A DNA stretch of 44,750 bases, taken from positions 1-44,750 of the forward strand of contig JAOAFE010000014.1 of assembly GCA_026416455.1 (NCBI GenBank), given 5' to 3'. Positions within the stretch are counted from its first letter, which is position 1, and every line of letters starts with the position of its first letter. Made by a program: the position numbers and the translations under genes. Below, piece after piece: positions 11,078 through 44,750 of the stretch. This stretch comes from Syntrophales bacterium (lineage in GTDB: Bacteria > Desulfobacterota > Syntrophia > Syntrophales > UBA8958). The notes under the pieces were generated by a model. That model worked only from the letters and a program-made list of their open reading frames with translations. It had not been told where the DNA came from and did not search any database.

Positions 11078-13257
11078 ACGATATTCGAAATCAAAAAGAC
11101 CTTACCTTAGCGGTCATTGGGAATCCAAATACAGGAAAATCGACTTTAATCAACGCGTTTTCGGGAGCACGACTACGAGTAGGAAATTGGCCAGGTGTAA
11201 CCGTTGAAAAGAAGAGTACTTCTTTTTCTTTCCGGGGAAGACACATTAACCTCGTGGATTTACCCGGCATTTACAGTTTAAGCCCTTATAACGAAGAAGA
11301 GATAATAGCCCGCAATTTCCTCCTTTTCGAACACTTCGATGCAATTATCAACGTAGTAGATGCGTGTAACTTGGAGCGCAATCTTTATTTAACCATTCAG
11401 CTTCTAGAACTCCAGCGACCGATAGTGGTTGCTATCAATATGGTGGATGAAGCGCAAAATGCGGGATTAGACATAAACATTAATGATCTTTCAATATTTT
11501 TAGGCTGCCCAGTGTGCCCAATCGTGGCAACAAAAGGGGAAGGTCTAAACTATCTATTAGAAAATGTATTGGAAATAACATCATCTTCTCATTTCTTAAC
11601 CCCTAATTTCTTTTATGGCACCGAGATCGAACATTCAGCCCGCAAAATAATGGAGAGTTTCTCTTTTATGAGAATAAATGAAATTTCGAAATATCCAAAG
11701 ATGTGGCTTGCTCTTAAAATAATTGAGGGTGATGCTCTAGTCCTGCAGGAGTTGGGCCTACCCTTAAATTCACCTCTTCGAGTTTCTAACATAGAAAACA
11801 TAAGCAAATTTTATGGGGAAGAATTGGATATCTTTTTAATAAGTAGACGTTACGACATCGCCCATAGCTTAGCTAAAGAAGTGATCAGAAAATCGAGTCC
11901 TCCGAGAAGAGAGATAACGGAAAAAATAGACGCCATAATACTAAACCGATTTTTTGGAATTCCAATTTTTTTGCTCATAATGTGGCTTCTTTTCAAATTA
12001 ACTTTCGATCTATCTGCACCATTTACTGATTGGATTGACTCATTATTTTCGGGATTCCTGCAAAGGCAAGTGCTTTTTCTTTCTAACTTAATTGGGGCAC
12101 CTGATTGGTCTGTTTCTCTCTTTACGGAGGGAGTTATCGGGGGAGTGGGATTAGTATTATCCTTTACCCCCTCCATTATGATCCTCATCTTCTTAATTAA
12201 TTTTATTGAAGCGAGCGGATATATAGCTCGGGCAGCCTTCCTTATGGATCGGGTTATGCATGCCCTCGGTCTGCCTGGCAAATCATTTATACCCCTAATC
12301 CTAGGATTCGGTTGCAATGTCCCGGCGCTGTATGCCACCCGTACTCTTGAATCCCAAAAAGAAAGGATACTTACAGCCCTACTTATTCCTTTTATGTCAT
12401 GCAGTGCTCGCCTACCTGTTTACGTACTATTCGCCGGTACCTTCTTTCCCGATTCAGCTCCGACCATTTTGTGGGCTCTTTATTTGATTGGAATTTCCTT
12501 GGCAGTTATAACGGGGCTTATCTTAAAGAAAAAGTTTTTCAGCCAAGAAGATCCCCCATTCATCATGGAGTTACCTCCTTATCGCCTGCCGAATTTCCGA
12601 GCTTTGTACCGGCAAACATGGGAAAAGGGGAAACTTTTTCTTATAAGAGCGGGGACATATATTCTTTGCATCTCTATCATTGTTTGGCTTCTACTCAATT
12701 TTCCTTGGGGAATTAAGAACAAAAACGAGTCTTATTTAGGTCAACTTGGTTCTTCCATTGCCCCTATTTTTGCTCCCCTTGGTTTTGGCTATTGGGAAGC
12801 ATCTGTCTCGTTAATAGGAGGTATTATGGCAAAGGAAATGATCATAACAACTATGGCACAAATTTATTCATCCGATAAAGAAAGAAGCCGAGATGAGGAA
12901 AATAGGCCTTTTTTCACAAATGAAATAAAGAAAATAATTATCGATCTAATATCGGCTGTGCAAAAGGCAATCATAAATGTCACAGCTATTTACAATGTTA
13001 AAAGCCTGAACCAGGATATACCGGAAAAGGATCAAAGCCTAAAAAAAGCCATTTCGAACTCATTTAGCCCACTCAGTGCTTTTTCTTTCTCGGTTTTTGT
13101 TTTGATCTATATGCCGTGCGTTGTGTTTCTAACAGCTTTTCGTCAGGAATTTTTGAGTTGGAAATGGCCTCTTCTGTCTCTTTTTTTGCACTGCACCGTC
13201 GCGTGGATAGTTGCCTTTGCCATCTATCAAGGAGGCCTAATAATAGGCCTTTCTTAA
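11053..13257 (+). CDS. feoB: Ferrous iron transporter FeoB
   Basis: The 734-residue product is FeoB, the inner-membrane ferrous iron permease with an N-terminal GTPase domain. G1 is GNPNTGKST at 23-31, the G2 Thr lies in PGVTVEK, G3 is DLPG at 69-72, and G4 is NMVD at 129-132 (NxxD as in other FeoB). A helical spacer precedes the C-terminal membrane domain with paired Gate motifs (ASGYIARAAFLMD, LGFGCNVPAL, SCSARLPVYV). It starts inside the 3' end of feoA. Import should be repressed by Fur under iron sufficiency. No separate feoC was seen, but the next gene carries a FeoB-associated Cys-rich segment. Complete, normal length. Confidence 0.97.
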   Translation: MHKWSTSINDIRNQKDLTLAVIGNPNTGKSTLINAFSGARLRVGNWPGVTVEKKSTSFSFRGRHINLVDLPGIYSLSPYNEEEIIARNFLLFEHFDAIINVVDACNLERNLYLTIQLLELQRPIVVAINMVDEAQNAGLDININDLSIFLGCPVCPIVATKGEGLNYLLENVLEITSSSHFLTPNFFYGTEIEHSARKIMESFSFMRINEISKYPKMWLALKIIEGDALVLQELGLPLNSPLRVSNIENISKFYGEELDIFLISRRYDIAHSLAKEVIRKSSPPRREITEKIDAIILNRFFGIPIFLLIMWLLFKLTFDLSAPFTDWIDSLFSGFLQRQVLFLSNLIGAPDWSVSLFTEGVIGGVGLVLSFTPSIMILIFLINFIEASGYIARAAFLMDRVMHALGLPGKSFIPLILGFGCNVPALYATRTLESQKERILTALLIPFMSCSARLPVYVLFAGTFFPDSAPTILWALYLIGISLAVITGLILKKKFFSQEDPPFIMELPPYRLPNFRALYRQTWEKGKLFLIRAGTYILCISIIVWLLLNFPWGIKNKNESYLGQLGSSIAPIFAPLGFGYWEASVSLIGGIMAKEMIITTMAQIYSSDKERSRDEENRPFFTNEIKKIIIDLISAVQKAIINVTAIYNVKSLNQDIPEKDQSLKKAISNSFSPLSAFSFSVFVLIYMPCVVFLTAFRQEFLSWKWPLLSLFLHCTVAWIVAFAIYQGGLIIGLS

Positions 13258-20858: not shown

Positions 20859-21962
20859 ATGCAAAAAATGGAAGAAGTTACATATTGGATCGCCCTAAAG
20901 CTGATGGGGAGCTTGAGCAACGGAGAAATAAGATCCCTCATCGACAACTTTTCATCTCCTCAAGCAGTATTCGAAGCGACAAAAGAAGACCTCTGCCGTA
21001 TCTTAGGCCGCAACTTGAAAGCGGTAGAAGACATCTTATGCTTTAACCAATGGGAAGAAGCCAAAAAAGAAGGTGAAAAGATGAAAGCCCATGGGGCCAA
21101 AATCATTACTTACTTAGATCCTGAATTCCCCGAACTGCTTAAAAACATCCACGACTGCCCCCCTTTTCTATACGTAAAAGGCGACCTAAAAAAAGAAGAC
21201 ATTAACATCGCCCTCGTCGGCTCCCGCCGAGCAAGTAGTTACGGCATAATAACGGCAGAAAACCTGGCGCGCGGTCTTGCGTTGGCCGGAATCACTATCG
21301 TCAGTGGCTTGGCTCGTGGCGTAGATGCGGCAGCCCACCGAGGTGCGATCGCCGCACGAGGCAGAACCATTGCCGTCCTCGGATCGGGTCTTGATTTCGT
21401 TTACCCGCCTGAAAATAAGAGTCTTTTTGCAGCCGTGGCACAATCGGGGGCGCTCGTAACGGAATATCCGTTTGGCACTCCACCGCGCGCGAAAAATTTT
21501 CCTGTCAGGAACAGATTAATAAGCGGCATGTCATGGGGAGTTGTTGTCGTTGAGGCGGGCGAGAAAAGCGGCTCTCTCATTACCGCGCGTCTAGCGGCAG
21601 AGCAAGGGCGCTATGTCTTTGCCGTTCCTGGAGATATCAATTCACCTCTTAGCCGGGGAACGCACCAACTTTTGAAAGAAGGCGCCACCCTGATAGAAAA
21701 AGTAGAAGATATTTTTGAGGAAATTTCTCCTCAAATCAGGTCCATAAAACCATCGATCGTAAGAAAAGAGGAGTTACCCACCGAGGCGAACGAAAAGGAA
21801 GCTCTCCTCTTGAGTTTAATAGGATCAAGGCCCATCCACGGGGATATGCTGATCCAAGAAACGGGACTTTCGGCAGGTGATGTAATGAGTATCCTTCTCA
21901 CTTTGGAATTGAAAGGCTTAATCACACAGCTGCCGGGAAAATACTACCAAAGGACACCTTAA
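20859..21962 (+). CDS. dprA: DNA-processing protein DprA
   Basis: The 367-residue product has an N-terminal helical SAM-like part (about 1-85), the DprA Rossmann domain with IALVGSRRASSYG, VSGLARGVDAAAH, AVLGSGLDFVYP and PVRNRLISGMS, and a C-terminal winged helix (about 310-365). DprA binds incoming single-stranded DNA and loads RecA during natural transformation. Together with the ComEA-like gene at 34167 it suggests competence. It is the first gene of the block leading to topA, trmFO and recCBD. The ATG at 20859 lacks a good ribosome site, and an ATG at 20868 is an alternative. Its stop lies one base before topA. Confidence 0.95.
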   Translation: MQKMEEVTYWIALKLMGSLSNGEIRSLIDNFSSPQAVFEATKEDLCRILGRNLKAVEDILCFNQWEEAKKEGEKMKAHGAKIITYLDPEFPELLKNIHDCPPFLYVKGDLKKEDINIALVGSRRASSYGIITAENLARGLALAGITIVSGLARGVDAAAHRGAIAARGRTIAVLGSGLDFVYPPENKSLFAAVAQSGALVTEYPFGTPPRAKNFPVRNRLISGMSWGVVVVEAGEKSGSLITARLAAEQGRYVFAVPGDINSPLSRGTHQLLKEGATLIEKVEDIFEEISPQIRSIKPSIVRKEELPTEANEKEALLLSLIGSRPIHGDMLIQETGLSAGDVMSILLTLELKGLITQLPGKYYQRTP

Positions 21963-21963
21963 C

Positions 21964-24354
21964 ATGACCCAATCTCTCATCATCGTAGAATCACCAACCA
22001 AGGTAAAAACCATAAAAAAATTTCTGGGACCAGGCTGTGAAATACTGGCGACCAAAGGGCACATCAAAGATCTACCCAAAAGCAAACTCGGCATCGATAT
22101 TGAGCATGATTTCGCTCCCACCTATCGGGTGATCGAAAGTCGAAAGAAGATTATAGAAGAAATAAAAAAGGCGGCGGCGAAATGTGAAACCATCTTTCTT
22201 GCCCCCGACCCAGACCGTGAAGGTGAGGCCATTGCCTGGCATGTGGCCGAAGAAATCAGAGACAATAGCAAAAAGATATACCGAGTGCTTTTCAATGACC
22301 TAACAAAAAATACGATCCTCGAAGGCATAGCCCATCCGAGAGACCTGGACGTATACAAATACGAAGCCCAGCAAACGAGACGCATTTTAGACCGCCTGGT
22401 GGGATACAAGATTAGCCCTCTTCTGTGGGATAAGGTAAGAAGGGGACTTTCGGCGGGAAGGGTTCAGTCGGTAGCCCTTCGACTCATCTGCGAACGGGAG
22501 GAGGAAATCAAAAAATTCATACCGGAAGAATATTGGATTATATCGGCTCAGTTAGAAGGAGATACACCCCCACCCTTCGAGGCTCGACTGATCAAGGTCG
22601 AGGGGAAAAAGGCACGCATAGAAAAAGAAAATGAGGCGGAACAAATAGTCCAATATCTGAAAACTCACCCTTTTGTCGTCGAGAAAGTTGAAGAGAAGGA
22701 AACGAAGCGTACCCCTCAACCCCCTTTTACAACCAGTAAATTGCAGCAAGAGGCAGCTCGTCGCTTGAACTTCTCTGCTCAAAAGACAATGGCAATCGCC
22801 CAGCGCCTATACGAAGGTGTAGAATTAGGACCGGAAGGGTCGGTAGGTCTGATCACTTACATGAGAACCGATTCGGTACGTATTGCCCAAGAAGCCCTTG
22901 AGGAAGCAAGGTCTTATATCAAAGACCATTATGACCCGTCTTTTTTACCTGCCCGGGCGAGAATATTTAAAAATACAGCCACGGCCCAGGATGCGCACGA
23001 GGCCATCCGTCCTACTTCTCTGAAGTACACGCCGACGGCCATAAAAAAATATCTATCGGGTGATGAATTCCGCCTCTATCAACTTATATGGAATCGCTTC
23101 ATCGCCTCGCAAATGGCCCCCGCCGTTTACGACCTTACTACCATCGATGTGCACTGCGGACCCTATACCTTGAGAGCCATGGGATCCGTGATGAAATTCC
23201 CCGGGTTCACCATCGTGTACAAAGAGATGACGGACGAAGCAGCACCAGCTGAAGAGTTGGAGCTCGGGGCTTTATTACCAAAGGTGAAAAAGGGAGATAT
23301 CCTCCGCCTGATCGAAATAAAGAAGGAACAAAAATTCACTCAGCCGCCGCCGAGATTCACAGAGGCAAGCTTGGTAAAAGAATTGGAAGAAAAGGGTATC
23401 GGCCGACCCAGTACCTACGCAACCATCATCAGTACGATCCAAGAGAGGAAATATGTGCGCCTAGAAGATAAGAAATTCCACCCCACTGAGCTCGGTATGA
23501 TCGTGAACGATCTCCTCGTTAAGAACTTCCCCAAAATCATAGATGTAGAATTCACCGCCACGATGGAGACGAAATTAGATAATATCGAACAGGGAATCGC
23601 TACACGTCTCGAGACATTAAGAGAGTTCTACCAAGAATTTTCCCAAGAGTTGAAAAAGGCGGAAGACGAGATGGACGATGTAAAAGGGGAAGGCATTCCT
23701 AGTGACCGTGTATGCGACAAATGTGGCCAACCTATGGTTATAAAGTTAGGCCGAAACGGTAGATTTTTGGCCTGTACAGCTTATCCAAAGTGCAAAAACA
23801 CGGCCAATTTGGAGGAAAATCAGGTCCCCTCCCCACCTGTAACCGATAAAACATGCGAAAAATGCGGTCGCCCAATGGTTATAAAGAGGGGAAGATACGG
23901 CACCTTCCTCGCCTGTACCGGTTACCCAGAGTGCAAGACGACCAAGAAGATGGTAAACGAAGGGATAGAGCAGAAGAAGGAAGAGATTCGGGAAACGGAA
24001 GAAGTATGTGAGTTGTGTGGTAGAAAGATGCTTCTCAGAGAAGGTCGTTTTGGAAGGTTTCTGGGGTGTTCCGGCTATCCAGCATGTAAAAACCTGCGTC
24101 CCGTGAGCCTGGGCATCCCCTGTCCTGAGCCGGAATGCCAAGGTTTTATCACGGAAAAAAAGACACGAAAGGGAAAAACCTTTTACAGCTGCTCCCGTTA
24201 CCCTCAATGCAAATTCGCCACCTGGGCCCGTCCCTTATCCGAGTTTTGTCCGGCCTGCGGTTACCCTTTTCTGGTAGAAAAAGTGACAAAGAAGGGGCGA
24301 TTCAAGATTTGTCCGTCAAAGATGTGCAAATATAAAGCATCCATTGAAGGATGA
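21964..24354 (+). CDS. topA: DNA topoisomerase I (type IA)
   Basis: The 796-residue product relaxes negatively supercoiled DNA. It shows the TOPRIM core (LIIVESPTKVKTIKKFLG; APDPDREGEAIAWH), the catalytic Tyr299 in GLITYMRTDSVRI, and GIGRPSTYATIISTIQ. The C-terminal part carries successive C4 zinc ribbons (CDKCGQPMV, CEKCGRPMV, CELCGRKM, CPEPECQGF, CPACGYPF), five in all, against three in E. coli. The last one keeps a modified second pair. It starts one base after the dprA stop and overlaps trmFO by ATGA, the usual dprA-topA-trmFO operon. Complete. Confidence 0.97.
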   Translation: MTQSLIIVESPTKVKTIKKFLGPGCEILATKGHIKDLPKSKLGIDIEHDFAPTYRVIESRKKIIEEIKKAAAKCETIFLAPDPDREGEAIAWHVAEEIRDNSKKIYRVLFNDLTKNTILEGIAHPRDLDVYKYEAQQTRRILDRLVGYKISPLLWDKVRRGLSAGRVQSVALRLICEREEEIKKFIPEEYWIISAQLEGDTPPPFEARLIKVEGKKARIEKENEAEQIVQYLKTHPFVVEKVEEKETKRTPQPPFTTSKLQQEAARRLNFSAQKTMAIAQRLYEGVELGPEGSVGLITYMRTDSVRIAQEALEEARSYIKDHYDPSFLPARARIFKNTATAQDAHEAIRPTSLKYTPTAIKKYLSGDEFRLYQLIWNRFIASQMAPAVYDLTTIDVHCGPYTLRAMGSVMKFPGFTIVYKEMTDEAAPAEELELGALLPKVKKGDILRLIEIKKEQKFTQPPPRFTEASLVKELEEKGIGRPSTYATIISTIQERKYVRLEDKKFHPTELGMIVNDLLVKNFPKIIDVEFTATMETKLDNIEQGIATRLETLREFYQEFSQELKKAEDEMDDVKGEGIPSDRVCDKCGQPMVIKLGRNGRFLACTAYPKCKNTANLEENQVPSPPVTDKTCEKCGRPMVIKRGRYGTFLACTGYPECKTTKKMVNEGIEQKKEEIRETEEVCELCGRKMLLREGRFGRFLGCSGYPACKNLRPVSLGIPCPEPECQGFITEKKTRKGKTFYSCSRYPQCKFATWARPLSEFCPACGYPFLVEKVTKKGRFKICPSKMCKYKASIEG

Positions 24355-25679
24355 CTTCTTTACCTTCTGTCGTAATCATTGGTGGAGGGCTGGCCGGTTG
24401 TGAAGCCGCGTGGCAACTTGTAAAACGTGGTCTGAGAGTTAGACTATTCGAAATGAAGCCAACCCGTTTCTCCCCTGCTCATACGTCAGCCAACCTCGCC
24501 GAATTAGTTTGTAGTAACTCATTCCGGGCTTCAAGCATCTCAAATGCCGCCGGTTTGCTGAAAGAAGAAATGCGCCGTTTAGATTCGATCACCATGCTTG
24601 CAGCCGACAAAACAACTGTCCCGGCAGGCCGTGCTTTAGCCGTTGATCGGCAAAGATTTTCCCAAACCGTAGAAGAGTATCTTACCGAGAAAAAGCCCCT
24701 CTTCGAGCTGATCCGAAAAGAAGTCACCACCCTTCCCGAAGAACGCCCCCTGTTAATAGCCAGCGGTCCCCTGACTTCTGATGCTCTCACGGAAGCATTG
24801 AAAAAGATGCTCCGCCAAGATTACTTATACTTCTACGATGCCATTTCTCCCCTGGTCTTTGCGGAAACTATAGATTATTCCCATGCATTCTGGGCCTCTC
24901 GCTACGACGAAGGTGCAGACTATCTGAACTTACCCCTCGATGAAAAACAATATGACAGATTTTGGCGCGCCCTCGTAGAGGCCGATCAAGTACCCCCTCA
25001 CCCCTTCGAAGAGCAGCGCTACTTTGAAGGCTGTCTACCCATTGAAGTCATGGCCAAAAGGGGACGCGACACCCTTCGTTTCGGTCCGATGAAGCCGGTA
25101 GGATTAAAAGAACCTACAACAGGTCGCCGTCCTTTTGCCGTCGTTCAATTAAGAAGAGAAAACGTGGAAGGTAGCCTTTTCAACATGGTGGGATTTCAAA
25201 CGCGCCTTAGATGGAAAGAACAGGAAAAGGTTTTTCGTCTCATTCCAGGTCTGGATAAAGCTGAATTCGCCCGCTATGGAAGCATCCATAGAAATACGTT
25301 CATAAACAGCCCCTCTTTACTAACCCGATCTCTCGCCCTTCGCCATGAAGAGGGAATATTTTTTGCGGGCCAGATTACGGGGGTAGAAGGATACATAGAA
25401 TCGGCCGCCATGGGCCTTCTGGCCGGACTATCTATTATCTTCTATCTTCGAAGGCAAGATTTTGTCCCGCCTCCGCCGACGACGGCGATGGGAGCGCTGT
25501 TGCAATACATAACAAAGGCAAACAAGAAGGAATTTCAGCCCATGAATGTAAACTTCGGCCTCTTTCCACCACTAGACGGGAATGTGCCGGCCCGTGAGCG
25601 GGGCCACATATACGCGCGGCGAGCACTCGATGAATTGGAAAAGTGGAAAGGCAAAGTATGGTCTGTCCTGGAGGGGTAG
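24351..25679 (+). CDS. trmFO: tRNA (uracil-5-)-methyltransferase TrmFO, folate/FAD-dependent
   Basis: The 442-residue product makes m5U54 in tRNA using methylene-tetrahydrofolate and FAD. It shows the FAD site VVIIGGGLAGCEAA (residues 7-20), the ANLAELVCSNSFR segment with Cys54 (the Cys53 equivalent of Bacillus TrmFO), the YFEGCLPIE Cys region and the C-terminal GQITGVEGYIESAAMG motif. It overlaps topA by 4 bases and lies 3 bases before the recC GTG start, so transcription probably continues into recCBD. Length is normal. No lesion. Confidence 0.97.
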   Translation: MTSLPSVVIIGGGLAGCEAAWQLVKRGLRVRLFEMKPTRFSPAHTSANLAELVCSNSFRASSISNAAGLLKEEMRRLDSITMLAADKTTVPAGRALAVDRQRFSQTVEEYLTEKKPLFELIRKEVTTLPEERPLLIASGPLTSDALTEALKKMLRQDYLYFYDAISPLVFAETIDYSHAFWASRYDEGADYLNLPLDEKQYDRFWRALVEADQVPPHPFEEQRYFEGCLPIEVMAKRGRDTLRFGPMKPVGLKEPTTGRRPFAVVQLRRENVEGSLFNMVGFQTRLRWKEQEKVFRLIPGLDKAEFARYGSIHRNTFINSPSLLTRSLALRHEEGIFFAGQITGVEGYIESAAMGLLAGLSIIFYLRRQDFVPPPPTTAMGALLQYITKANKKEFQPMNVNFGLFPPLDGNVPARERGHIYARRALDELEKWKGKVWSVLEG

Positions 25680-25682
25680 AAG

Positions 25683-28600
25683 GTGGCTCTTTTCGGTTAC
25701 ATAAGCAATCGCCTGGAACTCTTGGCCGATGAGCTCGCACAGGTAATCACCCGTGAGCCCTTGGATCCGCTTCAAGGAGAAATCGTCATTGTCCAAAGCC
25801 ACGGCATGGACAGATGGCTGACCTATGCCTTAGCCAAACGCATCGGCATTATAGCGAACGTTAAATTTCCCTTCCCCTCCCATTTTCTCAAGGAGGTAAT
25901 GAGCAGACTTTCCGCAATCGAGGAAGAGTCTTGGGCGGAATGGGAGCCGGAGGTTCTTACCTGGAACATCCTGAAACTCTTACCCTCACTTTTGGAAGAT
26001 GGGTCGTTTAGACCGATCAAAAACTACGTAGGGGGAGAAGATGACCATTTAAAAGCTTTTGAACTGGCGGGCCAAATCGCAACAACCTTCGACCATTATC
26101 TGGTATTTCGCCCCGATATGGTGACAAAATGGGAAGGAGGAGAAGAGCACCATTGGCAAGCCGTCCTGTGGCGAGAAATAATAAAGAAGAAAAGAAAACA
26201 TCCCGCTTACCTTTTGGATCGGCTCGTAGAAGAATCCCTCCCTCTCACCACCTGGCCACAACGGGTCTCCCTCTTTGGCATTTCCTATCTGCCACCTCTA
26301 TATCTTGACTTATTTCTCACCCTCTCTTCCTACTTCGACGTTCATTTCTTCTTGCTCAACCCTTGCCAGGAATACTGGGGAGATGCGCTAAGCCCGAAAG
26401 AGCTGTCCCGTCAGGCGAACAAAGCGCAGGAACTGTTTTTTTCTTCTCACAATAATCTCCTTTCCTCACTTGGCCGCCGGGGCAGGGAATTCTTCGATCT
26501 GTGGATAGAAAAAACTTCCCAACTCCCCTATGAAGAAAAATCCATCTTCGAGGAACCAGGAGAAGACACCCTGCTACACATCATCCAAAGTGACATCCTT
26601 CACTTCCGAGATAGGGGTGACAGCAAAAAAAAAGTGGTTGACATGATGGACGATTCCATCCAAATCCACTCGTGCCATGGCCCTCTCAGGGAAATAGAGA
26701 TACTGCAAGACTACTTGTTGGAGTTTCTCCGTCGCGATGAAACCCTAAAACCCTCCGATATTCTCATCATGACCCCGGATATAGACACCTATGCCCCCTA
26801 CATCAAAGCGGTGTTCTCCTTACCCGAAGAAGATCCCCGTAACCTACCTTTTTCCATTGCCGATTCAGTGGGAGCTCTGACCGGGCCACTGACCAAAACA
26901 TTCTTCAAAATGGGTAAACTGAAAGAAAGCCGACTCGAAGCATCATCAGTTCTTGACATCCTATCTAGTCCCGCCGTCCGTAGGAAATTCGGTCTCACCG
27001 AGGAAGAGTGGGAGACCACTGTAGAATGGGTCCATCGGTCAGGAATATATTGGGGCTGGGATGCGAAAACGAGGGCAGAACTCAATCTGCCGGCCATGGA
27101 AACAGGTACGTGGAAGGCAGGGATAAGAAGAATGCTTTTGGGTTACGCCCTTCCTCTCGAAGAGGATAATTATGAGTTCTCACACATCGTGCCCTTTGAC
27201 GAAATTGAGGGCTCCGATCGCAACATTTTGGAAGGCTTTCTCAAATTCTTGAACGCTCTTGATGAATTTCTAGCCACCCTAAAGGAGCAAAAAAATCCGA
27301 AAAACTGGGCTTCTTTTTTAAGAGATGTAACGGAGAATTTTTTTCTCCCCGACGTGGACGAAGAGCTGGCGGAAATAAGCAGGTTGCTTCAGGCTATCGA
27401 TTACCTGGAGATAACGGCAGAGAATGCAGATTTCGCAACACCTATACCTGCTGAAGTGGCCTATGAATTTGTCGAAAGGCAATTAAGTCTCTCCGTAGGC
27501 GCGAGCGGTTTTATGACCGGGGGAATTACCTTTTGTCATATGGTTCCCATGAGAAGCATTCCTTTTCGGGTCATCTGTTTGGTAGGCATGAATTTCGGGT
27601 CATTTCCCCGCTATCACCGCGCCCCGTCATTCGATCTCATAGTCAAATACCCGAGACCCGGAGATCCGTCAAAAAGATACGACGACCGTTTTCTTTTCCT
27701 AGAAGCCATTCTTTCGGCTAGAGATATACTGTATATCAGCTATACAGGACGCTCGCCGGAAGACAACTCCCAACTTCCCCCTTCAGTCGTCGTGAGCGAA
27801 TTCTTAGACTTCTTAAATGAGAACTTTGTCTTTCCCCGAGAGATTGTGACCCAACATCGCCTGCAGGCATTTAGCCCTTTTTATTTCCGAACTGATTCTC
27901 CCCTTTTCAGTTACTCTCAAGAGAATATGGAAGGGGCAAAGGCCTTCTCCGAACCTCAGAAGGTAGTACCTATCTTTTTCGATACCCCTCTTCCCCCGCC
28001 GAAGGAAGATGAATTTGCACCTACGGTGGACAACCTTTGTCGCTTTTTCAGCCATCCCTGCCGCTTTTTCATTCACCAGAGACTTGGCATCAACCTAAGC
28101 GAAGAAGAATTAATATTGACCGATGAAGAGCCATTTCTACTCGACGCCCTGCAAAGATATCAACTAAAAGAACGTCTTTTAGAGGAAAAGGGCAATGTCT
28201 ATCTCAAGTGCCTCATGGAGGGTAAATTGCCCTACGGTAATCCCGGCGTGTATGTGTTCCACTCTGTACAACAAGAAATATGGCCCCTCCGAGAAAAGAA
28301 AAGTACCTATGTTTCAGGATTTGCCAGGACAATACAGGTGGAAGTTGTAATCGAAGGGGAAAGAAAAACGTGGCAGATAAAGGGAACAGTGAAAGACATC
28401 TTTCCTGAAGGGTACGTTTTCTTACGCCCGACTAAATCTTATGGTCGAGCTCTTCTCGTCGCTTGGGTGACTCATCTGATCTTAAGTTGCAGCCGCTCTG
28501 TTCCCCATGATTTCCGCACTTTTGTGCTTCTCACAGAAAAAGATTACTGTTTTAAGCCGCCAGAAAATCCGGCAGCCCAATTGGAAAAACTTTTAAATCT

Positions 28601-28868
28601 TTACGACGAGGGTCTCTGTCGCCCTTTAAAACTTTTCCCCGAGGTCTCCCGAATTTACGTCGAGCATTTGATGAGGAAAGGGGACAAAGAAAAAGCCCTT
28701 CAAGAGGCGCGAACGGTATGGGAAGGGGGATATATAACGTCCGCCGAACAAGAAGACCCATATCATGCCCTCTGCTTTAAGGGGAAAGACCCGCTGGATG
28801 AAGAATTTGCTGAGACGGCATTAATGGTGTTTGAACCTATCTACCATCATCTCGAGGTCATAAAGTGA
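25683..28868 (+). CDS. recC: Exodeoxyribonuclease V subunit RecC
   Basis: The 1061-residue product is RecC, the Chi-recognition and scaffold subunit of RecBCD. The N-terminus GEIVIVQSHGMDRWLTYALA and later IQIHSCHGPLREIEILQDYL and RVICLVGMNFGSFPR are characteristic. RecC has a degenerate helicase fold with no active ATPase, and accordingly no Walker A is seen. The start is GTG at 25683 with GGAGGGG upstream. It overlaps recB by GTGA, so the C-B-D genes form a translationally coupled set. Somewhat shorter than E. coli RecC (about 1120) but complete. Probably repairs double-strand breaks and degrades foreign linear DNA. Confidence 0.93.
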   Translation: MALFGYISNRLELLADELAQVITREPLDPLQGEIVIVQSHGMDRWLTYALAKRIGIIANVKFPFPSHFLKEVMSRLSAIEEESWAEWEPEVLTWNILKLLPSLLEDGSFRPIKNYVGGEDDHLKAFELAGQIATTFDHYLVFRPDMVTKWEGGEEHHWQAVLWREIIKKKRKHPAYLLDRLVEESLPLTTWPQRVSLFGISYLPPLYLDLFLTLSSYFDVHFFLLNPCQEYWGDALSPKELSRQANKAQELFFSSHNNLLSSLGRRGREFFDLWIEKTSQLPYEEKSIFEEPGEDTLLHIIQSDILHFRDRGDSKKKVVDMMDDSIQIHSCHGPLREIEILQDYLLEFLRRDETLKPSDILIMTPDIDTYAPYIKAVFSLPEEDPRNLPFSIADSVGALTGPLTKTFFKMGKLKESRLEASSVLDILSSPAVRRKFGLTEEEWETTVEWVHRSGIYWGWDAKTRAELNLPAMETGTWKAGIRRMLLGYALPLEEDNYEFSHIVPFDEIEGSDRNILEGFLKFLNALDEFLATLKEQKNPKNWASFLRDVTENFFLPDVDEELAEISRLLQAIDYLEITAENADFATPIPAEVAYEFVERQLSLSVGASGFMTGGITFCHMVPMRSIPFRVICLVGMNFGSFPRYHRAPSFDLIVKYPRPGDPSKRYDDRFLFLEAILSARDILYISYTGRSPEDNSQLPPSVVVSEFLDFLNENFVFPREIVTQHRLQAFSPFYFRTDSPLFSYSQENMEGAKAFSEPQKVVPIFFDTPLPPPKEDEFAPTVDNLCRFFSHPCRFFIHQRLGINLSEEELILTDEEPFLLDALQRYQLKERLLEEKGNVYLKCLMEGKLPYGNPGVYVFHSVQQEIWPLREKKSTYVSGFARTIQVEVVIEGERKTWQIKGTVKDIFPEGYVFLRPTKSYGRALLVAWVTHLILSCSRSVPHDFRTFVLLTEKDYCFKPPENPAAQLEKLLNLYDEGLCRPLKLFPEVSRIYVEHLMRKGDKEKALQEARTVWEGGYITSAEQEDPYHALCFKGKDPLDEEFAETALMVFEPIYHHLEVIK

Positions 28869-31800
28869 AGACTTTCGATCTCCTCAATTCTCCTCTGGAA
28901 GGCACCCATCTCATAGAAGCAGGGGCTGGTACGGGAAAGACATACGCCATCGCCTTCCTTTTCCTCCGCTTGTTAATTGAAAAAAAATTAAAAATAGGTG
29001 AAATCCTCGTCCTTACATATACCAACAACGCCACCGATGAACTTCGCGACCGCATTCGAACATACATAAAACGGACACTAGACACCATAGCCGGCAAAGA
29101 AGAGCTGGACGCAGCCTTTCTGAGACTTCGGGAGGGATTAGTAGATCACACAGCGGCTAAGCGTCTCCTGAAAGAGGCATTGAGAGACTTTGATGAAGCG
29201 GCAATCTTCACCATCCATGGTTTTTGTCACAAAGTGCTAAAAGATTTTGCCTTTGAATGTGGATGCCCCATGAAAACGGAAGTCGTCGAAGATGATGCGC
29301 CGACAAAAATAGCCCTTTTTTTCGATTTCTGGCGACGCCACTTTTATCATTTACCGACAGAATTACTTTCGGCTTTTCACGCCCGCATACCAAAACTGTT
29401 TCCCCTGCTCATGGAGATAGCCTTGAATTTCCCCCGTGATCCATCCATAATCTTCAAGATCCCAGATGAGACAACCCATCCTCCCGATCTCGATCGTCTG
29501 CGGTCTTTATTCACGGAAATTTTCCACGTATGGCAAGAGGAAAAAGCTCTCATCGTAGAGGAAATCTGCAGAATCACGGAAAATAAAAGAGAGGAAATTA
29601 TTTCGAAGCTCTCTTTTTATTTTTCCGACACGAGATATTTTCCCCTGCTGGTGGGAACGGAAAATTTAGCCTTGTCAAAATACACAAAAAAGAAAAAAAG
29701 CCTCCTCTCCCACAGATTTTTCCGCCTTCTCGACGAGTTCGAATCCGCAAGGAAGAAAGTAGTCGAAGATGCCAATCGATATTTAAACCATTTAATCCAT
29801 CGTCTCTTATTGTCGATGAGAAACGAATTACCTACATTAAAGGGACGACTGCGAGAGTTATCGTTTGACGATTTGCTTCTGGAGCTGCATCGTTCAATTA
29901 CGGATAACAACACGGGTCCACTTCTCAAAAAAGCCATCAAAGAACATTATAAAGCGGCCCTAGTGGATGAGTTTCAAGATACGGACCCCGTACAGTATGA
30001 AATAATAAAATCGATCTTCGAAGGGGAAAGCAGCCTTTTTCTCATCGGTGATCCGAGACAGGCAATCTACAGCTTTCGGGGAGCCGATCTTTTTACCTAT
30101 GTGTCTGCTCGGCAACAGTTGAATGAGAATAACATTTACACGCTAACCGACAACCATCGTTCCACACCCGGTCTCATCAAGGCCGTAAACAGCATTTTTT
30201 CCAATCATCCAAATCCTTTTGTATTTCCAGAAATTAAGTTTATACCCTCCCGATCGAGCAGCAAGAAGGCCTTCTTTTGGCCGGCACAAATGAACCCCTC
30301 TCCCTTACAACTTTGGTACTTCAAAGATGATTACCTCGAATCCAAAAACATCAAAAAAAGCACCGATCGGCTGAGAAAACTCATGGCCATCCATCTGGCA
30401 AGCGAGGTAGGATGCCTCCTTGAGGCGGGGTCAAGGGGTGAAGCCAAGCTTGATGGAAAACCTCTGGAGCCGGAAGACATTGTTATCTTGGTCCGCCACC
30501 GGTACGACGCCACTATTGTTCAGCAGACATTGTCCGATATGGGCATCAAAAGCGTTTTCCAACGGATGGGGCCTCTCTTCGAAACGGAAGAAGCACGAGC
30601 ATGCTTTTTACTCTTGCAGGCCATTTTAGAACCTCATCGGAGAGACCTTTTAAAAGCAGCCCTGTCAACGGATATAATGGGCCAGACGGCTTCAGAGATC
30701 TTCTCCGACGATGGGGAGAGGTACTTTACGTCCTTTAATCGTTACCGTTTCCTTTGGGAGCGAAAGGGTTTCTTGCCCATGTTTCGAGAACTCATCAGGG
30801 AACACCATGTGCGGGAAAGATTGCTGATGACAGAAAACGGGGAAAGAAAATTGACCAACCTATTGCAGCTCGGCGAAATCCTACACGAAAGGGAAGCAAA
30901 AGAAGCACTTCTACCGTCAGATCTGGTCAAGTGGCTAAGCGACAAAATCAATGACGATAAAAAAAGGGTAAGTGAATATGAGCTCCGCCTAGAAAGTGAT
31001 GAAGGCGCCGTCGTCATTTCCACCATTCATGGTGCTAAAGGACTAGAGTTCCCCGTGGTTTTTTGTCCTTACCTCTGGATACCAGTGAGAAAGGAAAGAA
31101 ATGACGAGGCCTTCACGGTGTATCACGAAACAGATGGACATAAATGGCACAAGACACTCTCTATTGAGAAGACGCAAGACATAAAAGAATTGGCCTGGCG
31201 TGAGACCTTCGCCGAGGAATGCCGACTTCTCTATGTTGCCCTGACACGCGCGGTTTATCGTTGTTACGTTTTTTGGGGTCGAGTTCCACGAGCAAACACT
31301 TCTCCCCTTGCTTACGTCCTACATTATAGAACAGGCGATGTACGTTTCGATGATCTGGCAAAATTCATGGAGGAGTTGGAGGAAAAAGACATTATCGAGG
31401 ACCTTTACACCCTCTCACGGCTCTCTTCAGAAGAAGTTCATTTTGCTATGATCGAAGACCTACCGGTTACACACCGTTATGAGGGAGCAAGGGAAAAAAC
31501 AGGAGAATTCAAAATACGCACGGCACCAGATATCTCTAGGCGGGTAGAGAAGACGGTAAGTTTTACCCTGCTGACCACCAGGAGAGAGGAAGAAGATTAC
31601 CTGGATTTAGACCTACCGTCACCTCTTGCTACACCACCCGAGCATGTCGATCCCGTCTTCCTTTTTCCCTCTGGCTTACGGGCCGGACTTGTCCTCCACC
31701 GAATCATGGAAAAGCTTGACTATGCTAATTTCAGTAAAGATAGGGCATTGAGCGAAATAAGAGAGAATTTGAGACTTTTCGGTTTTTCGTCGGATTGGGA

Positions 31801-32374
31801 AGGCGCGATCTGGCTCATGATATCACGGGCCCTCACCACACCTCTCGATGGATCGGATGGAAAGATCATACTGTCTCATGTACGCCCCCAGGATCGTTTA
31901 CCCGAATTGTCTTTCACCTTGCCCGTGACGAGATTAACGATCGAAAAACTATCAGCTCCGTTTACCCAGACAGCTTTTGCTGAATACATCGACCGCTTGA
32001 GCTTTCCACCGTACAAAGGCTTTCTCCGAGGTTTTATCGACCTTGTTTTTCGCTTCGAAGGTAGATATTATCTCCTAGATTGGAAAACGAACCATTTGGG
32101 ATACGAATTTACCGACTATACTCCCGCGCGACTTGAAACGATAATGGGCGACCACTTCTACTTTCTTCAGTACCACTTCTACCTCCTTGCCCTTCATCAA
32201 CACTTAAAGAGAACTTTATCGAATTACGATTACGAAGAACATATGGGAGGCATCTTTTATGTTTTCATGCGAGGGATTAACCCGGATCCCCAAATACGAT
32301 CGGGAATCTATGAGGATTTGCCCCCTCTGGAGAGGATAAAACAGTTGGAGCAGGCACTATTAATCGAGGTCTAA
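28865..32374 (+). CDS. recB: Exodeoxyribonuclease V subunit RecB (helicase-nuclease)
   Basis: The 1169-residue product is an SF1 helicase-nuclease. Walker A is GAGTGKT (residues 20-26), then VLTYTNNATDELRDRIR, VDEFQDTDPVQ, LIGDPRQAIYSFRGAD and the helicase motif HGAKGLEFPVVF. The C-terminal RecB nuclease has GFIDLVFRFEGRYYLLDWKTNH, with Asp1059, Asp1072 and Lys1074 as metal/catalytic residues. It starts at GTG 28865 overlapping recC by four bases. The active sites look complete, so RecBCD should be functional. Confidence 0.96.
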   Translation: MKTFDLLNSPLEGTHLIEAGAGTGKTYAIAFLFLRLLIEKKLKIGEILVLTYTNNATDELRDRIRTYIKRTLDTIAGKEELDAAFLRLREGLVDHTAAKRLLKEALRDFDEAAIFTIHGFCHKVLKDFAFECGCPMKTEVVEDDAPTKIALFFDFWRRHFYHLPTELLSAFHARIPKLFPLLMEIALNFPRDPSIIFKIPDETTHPPDLDRLRSLFTEIFHVWQEEKALIVEEICRITENKREEIISKLSFYFSDTRYFPLLVGTENLALSKYTKKKKSLLSHRFFRLLDEFESARKKVVEDANRYLNHLIHRLLLSMRNELPTLKGRLRELSFDDLLLELHRSITDNNTGPLLKKAIKEHYKAALVDEFQDTDPVQYEIIKSIFEGESSLFLIGDPRQAIYSFRGADLFTYVSARQQLNENNIYTLTDNHRSTPGLIKAVNSIFSNHPNPFVFPEIKFIPSRSSSKKAFFWPAQMNPSPLQLWYFKDDYLESKNIKKSTDRLRKLMAIHLASEVGCLLEAGSRGEAKLDGKPLEPEDIVILVRHRYDATIVQQTLSDMGIKSVFQRMGPLFETEEARACFLLLQAILEPHRRDLLKAALSTDIMGQTASEIFSDDGERYFTSFNRYRFLWERKGFLPMFRELIREHHVRERLLMTENGERKLTNLLQLGEILHEREAKEALLPSDLVKWLSDKINDDKKRVSEYELRLESDEGAVVISTIHGAKGLEFPVVFCPYLWIPVRKERNDEAFTVYHETDGHKWHKTLSIEKTQDIKELAWRETFAEECRLLYVALTRAVYRCYVFWGRVPRANTSPLAYVLHYRTGDVRFDDLAKFMEELEEKDIIEDLYTLSRLSSEEVHFAMIEDLPVTHRYEGAREKTGEFKIRTAPDISRRVEKTVSFTLLTTRREEEDYLDLDLPSPLATPPEHVDPVFLFPSGLRAGLVLHRIMEKLDYANFSKDRALSEIRENLRLFGFSSDWEGAIWLMISRALTTPLDGSDGKIILSHVRPQDRLPELSFTLPVTRLTIEKLSAPFTQTAFAEYIDRLSFPPYKGFLRGFIDLVFRFEGRYYLLDWKTNHLGYEFTDYTPARLETIMGDHFYFLQYHFYLLALHQHLKRTLSNYDYEEHMGGIFYVFMRGINPDPQIRSGIYEDLPPLERIKQLEQALLIEV

Positions 32375-43667: not shown

Positions 43668-44750
43668 TCATATCCCCACTACATGGGCCAGTTTATCAAC
43701 GATACTCTTGACGGATAGGGCCCGTTCGTTCGTCTGCCTGGCATAGGCCGCACTCTCCAAAACGTGCTTTTTCATCTCTTCCGCATATTTTCCCACTTCT
43801 ATCATAGCGGCATTCACATCTTTTACCGCCTCTTGCAGTTGAGCGGCCATTTCCCCAGCTTCCTTCGTGAATTCAGCAATTTGGAAACTCACCGTGCCAT
43901 ATTCGTTGAACTTCACTAAGGCTACATGCATTGTTTGCGACCCACCACTTACGGCCTCAATAGTACGCTTAATCATATCGAGAGAATTTTTGGCCGCCTG
44001 AGAAGAACGACGACCCAAATTCCTGATATCGGCGGAAACCACGGCAAATCCGCTGCCTGCCCCCTTTGAGCGGGCCGCTTCGACGGAGGCGTTTAGAGCA
44101 AGTAGCCTCGTTTGGAAGGCTATATCTTCTATATTGCTTAGATACTTTGACGTCTTCAGGCTCGTCTCTTGAATTTCCTTCATCATCTTTCGAGCCGTCC
44201 TCATCTGAGTGAAGGCATCCATCCCACTTACCGCCGTTGCGTCAGAGGTTTTTTTGAGGCTTTCAATTCGTTCCCGATACGCAGTGCTCAAGTTATCTAA
44301 TTCTTTCGCGTCCTGTATCGTTTCATTTAGTAATTGAAGCTGTTTTTCTCCCGCCTCAACCAGGCTTCTACTTGCTTCCGCAATCTGGTTAGCCGCTTCG
44401 GAGAATTGTTCCGCCGTGTCCTTCAACTCCCCCACCGCACGCACCACCGGCGCCGTAATCGCCCGGGCAAAATACACCCCCAAAACCAAAGCCAAAACCA
44501 CACCCAATACCGTACCACCTAAAGCCACCCCCTGAAACCACCGCGCCTGACCCAAACCAGATAACGCCACCACCTCCACTCCCCGATCCACCTCCTTACG
44601 CAACACCTCCAAAACACCACCAAAACGCACCAAAACCCCCTCCAACGAACTACCCCACACCCGCATCGCCTCATCCCTATTCCCACTAGCCAACGCCCCA
44701 AACCATAAACCCTTGCCCGCCTCCCACTCCGACCACACCACCTTCACATC
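43668..44750 (-). CDS. Methyl-accepting chemotaxis protein (5' end cut by window edge)
   Basis: At least 360 residues of a chemoreceptor are visible, read leftward from the right window edge. There is an N-terminal sensory fragment, one transmembrane helix ([21 protein letters not shown]), a short HAMP-like [16 protein letters not shown], then a signalling helix hairpin ([39 protein letters not shown]). The tip differs from the consensus by having no Glu in VVADEVR. Translation from the frame edge starts inside the protein; a GTG at 44747 could be a start only if the protein were truncated. No CheR pentapeptide. The upstream part has an unusual G+T-rich coding strand (see findings). Confidence 0.88.

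Follow-up and report, generated by a model that had tools for sequence, protein, structure and literature searches.

The stretch of DNA analysed here (hereafter the window) is the whole of contig C5, 44,750 bases long, from a 2.1-Mb genome assembled in 44 contigs. At its right end lies the C-terminal part of a gene for a methyl-accepting chemotaxis receptor, whose MCP signalling domain (PF00015) scores 89.6 bits against a cut-off of 34.6, and the contig breaks off at position 44750 inside an island of aberrant base use within this gene. The features concerned are as follows.

43668..44750, minus strand: open reading frame for the C-terminal 360 codons of the receptor, cut by the contig end (Pfam MCPsignal, 2.7e-25)
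43668..44420, minus strand: signalling part of the receptor, with ordinary base use (third-position G+T 0.54)
44421..44750, minus strand: island rich in G and T on the coding strand, running off the contig (third-position G+T 0.94 versus 0.54; change point at codon 110)

The composition break in the receptor gene is real. On the plus strand, A+C makes up 146 of the 180 bases at 44521–44700, exactly the number that a preliminary description had counted by hand, compared with 0.519 over bases 1–44420 (binomial P of about 3e-16), and plus-strand G+T per 180-base window is 0.16–0.21 in the island, against a minimum of 0.34 among windows starting before 44250. On the coding (minus) strand, codons 1–106 have G 0.63, T 0.30, A 0.05 and C 0.02 at their third positions, compared with G 0.32, T 0.22, A 0.26 and C 0.20 in the remainder of the gene. 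The best single change point falls at codon 110 of the partial reading frame, that is, window position 44421 (2 delta lnL 64.5), about 10 bases from the position near 44430 where a leftward return to normal base use had been placed, and a hydrophobic helix (judged by eye) ends about 13 codons ahead of it. G+C also rises in the island (to about 0.58, versus 0.47–0.51 in the remainder of the gene), and in the weakly constrained sensor the first and second codon positions are biased as well (G+T 0.80 and 0.65).

The N-terminal part of the receptor lies at the end of another contig, C44 (L134:19100-19447), so that C44 and C5 carry the two halves of the gene; the halves abut within about one codon when set against five of six related receptors and would overlap by 7 against the sixth. 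The preliminary description had held that full-length homologues of equal skew would speak against a recombined sensor module, and no such homologues are present among these six, in which third-position G+T of the corresponding region is 0.49–0.58. We found no close orthologue of the receptor. A search for paralogues sharing its G/T-rich 5' part, which the same description had suggested, returned no second copy in the genome sequence searched, where twenty small contigs of 512–1,090 bases (possible sites of island cores) read as N.

The receptor island is one of a set. At least four further islands occur in the genome, in genes for an HpaB-like protein, a thiolase, a CoA-transferase and a lipoprotein-esterase, all of them seen near contig ends and located as follows.

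Receptor: C44 end and C5 end
Lipoprotein-carboxylesterase: C44 start and C1 start
HpaB-like gene: C8 start and C16 end (N-terminus), and, more weakly, C1 end (C-terminus)
Thiolase: C33 start, with both borders inside
CoA-transferase operon: C4 end (subunit A) and C2 end (subunit B)

HpaB and CoA-transferase A are each present twice, so the pairing of halves across contigs is not settled for these two. Among the 517 open reading frames of the examined stretches, third-position G+T averages 0.514 (sd 0.094 per 40 codons), and windows of at least 0.85 occur in nine, each within roughly 1 kb of a contig end, those at the C7 start and C40 end being weak. A 40-base G/T run with at most three mismatches is met in this genome only at the C5 and C2 ends. 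Places matching forty consecutive NNK codons without mismatch all lie near ends of C1, C2, C5 and C33; with at most two mismatches there are 544 such places, the highest number among 100 genomes (the next has 186), of which 402 fall in 44 stretches at contig ends (176,864 bases in all, the entire window and two entire small contigs among them), 27 in 20 other stretches (386,718 bases), all at a single low-complexity site, and the other 115 outside both sets. The 20 other stretches include the C44 end, where the island is shorter than the 40-codon pattern. Among the matches listed, codon-phased runs number 275 here and at most 59 in any other of 155 genomes of the order; by eye, the relatives' runs among those matches are low-complexity protein regions, mostly the antisense of Ala/Lys-rich tails, together with one phage-like contig. 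The borders of the islands are mostly sharp. Long antisense reading frames arise in the islands because their A/C-rich DNA is without stop codons, and we reject the reading of the islands as antisense genes.

Where codons are free to vary, the islands use G and T almost exclusively. In 888 codons pooled from seven segments, two weaker segments being omitted, Leu is TTG in 60 of 70 cases and never CTG, Val is GTG in 80 of 90, and Glu and Lys are exclusively GAG (49/49) and AAG (37/37); adding the two weaker segments gives TTG 64/77 and a single CTG. The pooled codons are mostly TTG, GTG, GGG, GGT, GCG, GAG and AAG, with few ending in C or A except ATA and TTA, third-position G+T is 0.93–0.96 per island segment, and C is depleted at third positions more than A. 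As Leu is written TTG without CTG, it is the bases, and not the third position as such, that are under pressure.

How far the encoded proteins have changed can be seen in the thiolase, which has orthologues of 79% and 73% identity in two genomes of other families. Amino-acid identity to G012 and G029 is 0.78 and 0.71 over the first 79 aligned codons, 0.79 and 0.76 over the next 78 (that is, before the island), 0.78 and 0.69 over the 220 codons of the island, and 0.88 and 1.00 over the last 25, and the more distant G013 gives 0.59 inside the island and 0.56, 0.40 and 0.57 outside. Third-position G+T of the orthologues across the island region is an unbiased 0.45–0.49. Similar identity inside and outside the island, together with unbiased orthologues, argues firmly for a synonymous shift made in place, with the protein kept. 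An imported module would be expected to change the distance to orthologues, and no such change is seen in the thiolase, which alone among these genes has close orthologues to either side of a border; the foreign sensor module envisaged in the preliminary description is accordingly left without support. G/T use in the thiolase is already raised (0.65) in the 78 codons preceding the island, so this border is not sharp. For CoA-transferase B, identity to G029 is 0.84 in the island and 0.64 in a 44-codon tail that is less conserved in other homologues too. In these 44 codons, right after the island at the C2 end (L090:2383-2520), third positions are A/C-rich (G+T 0.16–0.20), the opposite of the island.

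In a comparison among the 48 ends belonging to the 24 contigs of more than 3 kb, three of the five island genes (HpaB, CoA-transferase A and thiolase) proved to have second copies elsewhere, with stretches of complete or 99% identity at the island edge or close to it, in unrelated contexts; the second-copy sequence available covers the first 70–105 bp of the second island for HpaB and CoA-transferase A, and two gene ends for the thiolase. The HpaB starts on C8 and C16 are identical from GATTACATTCAGCG for 77 bp, beginning about one to two codons ahead of the G/T onset, and the DNA upstream of the start is unrelated. Similarly, the CoA-transferase A starts (C4 end and C14 start) agree at 99% over 105 bp, beginning at about codon 6, again with unrelated DNA upstream, and in both genes the 5' identity border lies within a few codons of the G/T onset. 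Stretches of near-identity exist beyond the islands as well: the last 77 bp of the thiolase (C33, past the island) are common to C13 and C3 in two different contexts, a second thiolase start on C16 is 95.9% identical over 242 bp and not G/T-rich, and the HpaB ends on C1 and C3, outside the island, match at 87.9% over 116 bp. A paralogue of the esterase lies at the C7 start (L074:2-997; 86.9% over 168 bp); its tract is shorter and less extreme, with third-position G+T reaching at most 0.85 per 40 codons, and the esterase is still G/T-rich although this known paralogue has diverged. The exact 77-bp ends shared by C8/C16 and by C33/C13/C3 would be remains of repeats collapsed by an assembler with k=77. 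Judged from these alignments, the link between islands and paralogue identity is good at the HpaB and CoA-transferase A 5' borders and in the pair described below, less tight at the 3' ends of thiolase and HpaB, and for the receptor it is unproved.

A complete pair is found in a distant genome. Matches to 40-base G/T runs were present in 104 of 395 genomes of the phylum, many of them poly-G or simple repeats in the loci or stretches of 24 genomes that were examined in part, with 13 of 30 loci from that scan covered; a third-position run of at least 0.85 occurred in 6 of these 24, and G209 was the one subjected to the paralogue comparison. This GC-rich genome of another family carries two genes for permeases of the MacB/FtsX type within a 597-kb contig; their starts are separated by 3.4 kb, and the genes share 98.5% over 1,654 bp. 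The copies differ in the first 16 or so codons, and from FRADFGRLALS on there are two differences in 1,500 alignment columns. At the 5' border, a single 50-column window holds both the rise of identity from 0.60 to 1.00 and that of G+T from 0.49–0.58 to 0.82; at the 3' border, G+T falls from 0.72 to 0.50–0.52 where identity falls from 1.00 to 0.84, and identity stays at 0.74–0.90 for about 150 columns after the G/T fall. G+T of this tract is 0.71 in both copies, followed by 0.50 in copy A and 0.60 in copy B, and its G+C is 0.68–0.69, compared with 0.68 in the 20-kb region. A second shared tract (97.0% over 610 bp) has a G+T of only 0.605, and other repeats listed in the same 20 kb have identities of 65.7–97.8% and G+T of 0.44–0.62. 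Third positions in the tract are G 0.67–0.70, T 0.10–0.11, C 0.14–0.15 and A 0.06–0.07, and with so much G and so little C in a GC-rich genome transitions alone are insufficient to account for them.

Three observations from the survey are recorded here in their own right. Copy A of G209 has an apparent frame shift near the end of the identical tract (L260, about 11800–11940), from a pseudogene or a sequence error. In G247, a reading frame resembling a membrane transporter by eye (L265:3266-4171) has a 40-codon patch with third-position G+T of 0.90, and C210 of G462 (L240) contains a kilobase region, partly N, with strongly skewed G/T content and repeated segments.

In two genomes, then, some G/T tracts coincide with twin genes, which suggests that copying between twins can drive base content. 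We consider it an even call that the receptor island belongs to a set of gene-internal tracts in which paralogous copies repeatedly undergo gene conversion, with G and T strongly favoured on the coding strand; the receptor is placed in this class because of its composition and the contig break within its island. The earlier suggestion of an exchange among paralogous receptors gains from the near-identical stretches with unrelated flanks in HpaB, thiolase and CoA-transferase and from the complete G209 pair, and for the receptor itself it is left without a second copy. Gene conversion, beyond recent duplication alone, would keep the paralogues identical, and conversion itself would generate the bias. 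On C1, the HpaB island at one end and the esterase island at the other are on opposite strands, and GC skew in three sampled stretches of this contig is −0.081, −0.094 and −0.076, with only the esterase end at +0.095; the bias therefore tracks the coding strand and not the replication strand.

As to what might impose such a bias, we hypothesize that RecA better holds G/T-rich coding single strands, which are rich in TGG and GTG and little structured, so that each conversion would favour the G/T-richer allele. Folded as DNA, the island strand of the receptor gives −12.5 kcal/mol versus −33.7 for 300 nt nearby in the same gene, and TGG occurs 8.8 times per 100 nt in the island versus 1.9 in the remainder. 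According to PMC3763553, RecA dissociates most slowly from TGG repeats, and nucleation on TG-rich DNA is no better, only dissociation being slower. The E. coli pairs gadA/gadB (97.8%) and tufA/tufB (98.9%) have a G+T of 0.50 and no bias, so conversion alone is not enough and something more, perhaps its rate or the recombination machinery, would be needed. More tentatively, and with distinctly less confidence than in conversion as such, we envision a molecular drive in which the recombinase prefers G/T-rich single strands and this preference, in combination with transcription or with exposure of the coding strand, lets the G/T-richer copy win, so that paralogue pairs would run to near-complete synonymous G/T use wherever conversion is frequent enough. 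The window itself holds a cluster of dprA, topA, recC-like and recB-like genes (20859–32374). Separately, the ordinary interior genes dprA, recB-like and topA (20859–21962, 28865–32374 and 21964–24354) contain opposite and weaker patches of A/C-ending codons, with third-position G+T down to 0.15–0.20 per 40 codons and, in 20859–21962, within codons 17–138. None of the observations on RecA, TGG content, weak structure and recombination genes gives the direction of cause.

Two other explanations deserve weight, each of which we think unlikely. In one, transcription-linked mutation of a coding strand exposed in R-loops adds A-to-G and C-to-T changes until synonymous sites saturate, with the repeats incidental. 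It would account for coding-strand specificity in both orientations, and the C retained in two-fold codons stands mostly before A (8/43 versus 1/165), which resembles a mutational context. Transitions alone, however, cannot turn the genome's Val codons (GTA.28, GTC.21, GTG.25, GTT.26) into GTG 80, GTT 6 and GTA 4, nor do they explain the G209 third positions, and borders that track paralogue identity are not predicted; as transversions are required, exposed-strand deamination as sole cause is rejected. Repeat-induced mutation is rejected as well, since it would make copies differ. In the other, held to be about equally improbable, resident homologues took up, by recombination, DNA of a donor replicon or strain whose codon use is G/T-rich throughout its genome, and tracts then spread between paralogues. 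Island codon use sharply unlike that of 19 window reading frames, sharp borders and the C7 paralogue with its shorter, less extreme tract all fit such a donor. Against it stand the steady identity of the thiolase to its orthologues across the border, a blastn comparison of two islands with 72,556 plasmids (one without match, the other with short matches only), and the codon-phased runs, in which, among the matches listed, no other genome of the order comes near.

The remaining two readings appear still less probable. Selection on the mRNA or codons of island genes (for expression, structure or nuclease escape), which we regard as improbable indeed, agrees with the little-structured island strand, yet it leaves gene-internal borders and their relation to identity tracts unexplained, as well as the bias at first and second codon positions of the receptor sensor. 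An assembly or sequence artefact at contig ends, rated marginally lower again, would explain why islands in this genome are seen near contig ends only; however, reading frames and protein conservation are intact, some ends share exact 77-bp overlaps as at collapsed repeats, and the similar case in G209 lies inside a contig of 597 kb.

If biased conversion between paralogues is indeed the cause, base composition and codon use in bacteria would be subject to a separate force, a G/T push that acts on one strand and goes with tracts of paralogue identity. Genomes would then show which sequences the recombination machinery prefers, and a class of assembly breaks and false horizontal-transfer signals would be explained. 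No report of islands of this kind was found among the titles and abstract openings listed in a literature search.

Among known systems, concerted evolution by gene conversion (tuf and the genes treated in PMC6053082) is alike in that two copies at separate loci have almost the same coding tract between flanks that have diverged, a pattern seen here for HpaB, CoA-transferase A and thiolase within the sequence available for second copies, and in the G209 pair; it differs in that E. coli tufA/tufB lack base bias. The terms 'GC content', 'base composition' and 'biased gene conversion' do not occur in the main text of PMC6053082.

Biased gene conversion is usually discussed as a push toward G+C. 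GC-biased conversion likewise shifts the base composition of repeats, but the shift here is of G/T versus A/C on one strand; a rise in G+C without strand preference is not what we observe, as the bias is strand-specific, although G+C does rise in the receptor island, and G+C of the first G209 tract is not raised. Diversity-generating retroelements also leave an altered tract with sharp edges within a gene, but their substitutions are confined to adenine, whereas here third positions have lost more C than A, the proteins that were compared are conserved, and the tracts are hundreds of bases long. A further parallel is offered by E. coli, where RecA pairs preferentially with GT-rich islands around Chi and GT-rich coding strands are favoured by RecA; those islands are mild and have been explained by codon use, in contrast to the islands described here, with third-position G+T of 0.93–0.96 per segment and borders inside genes.
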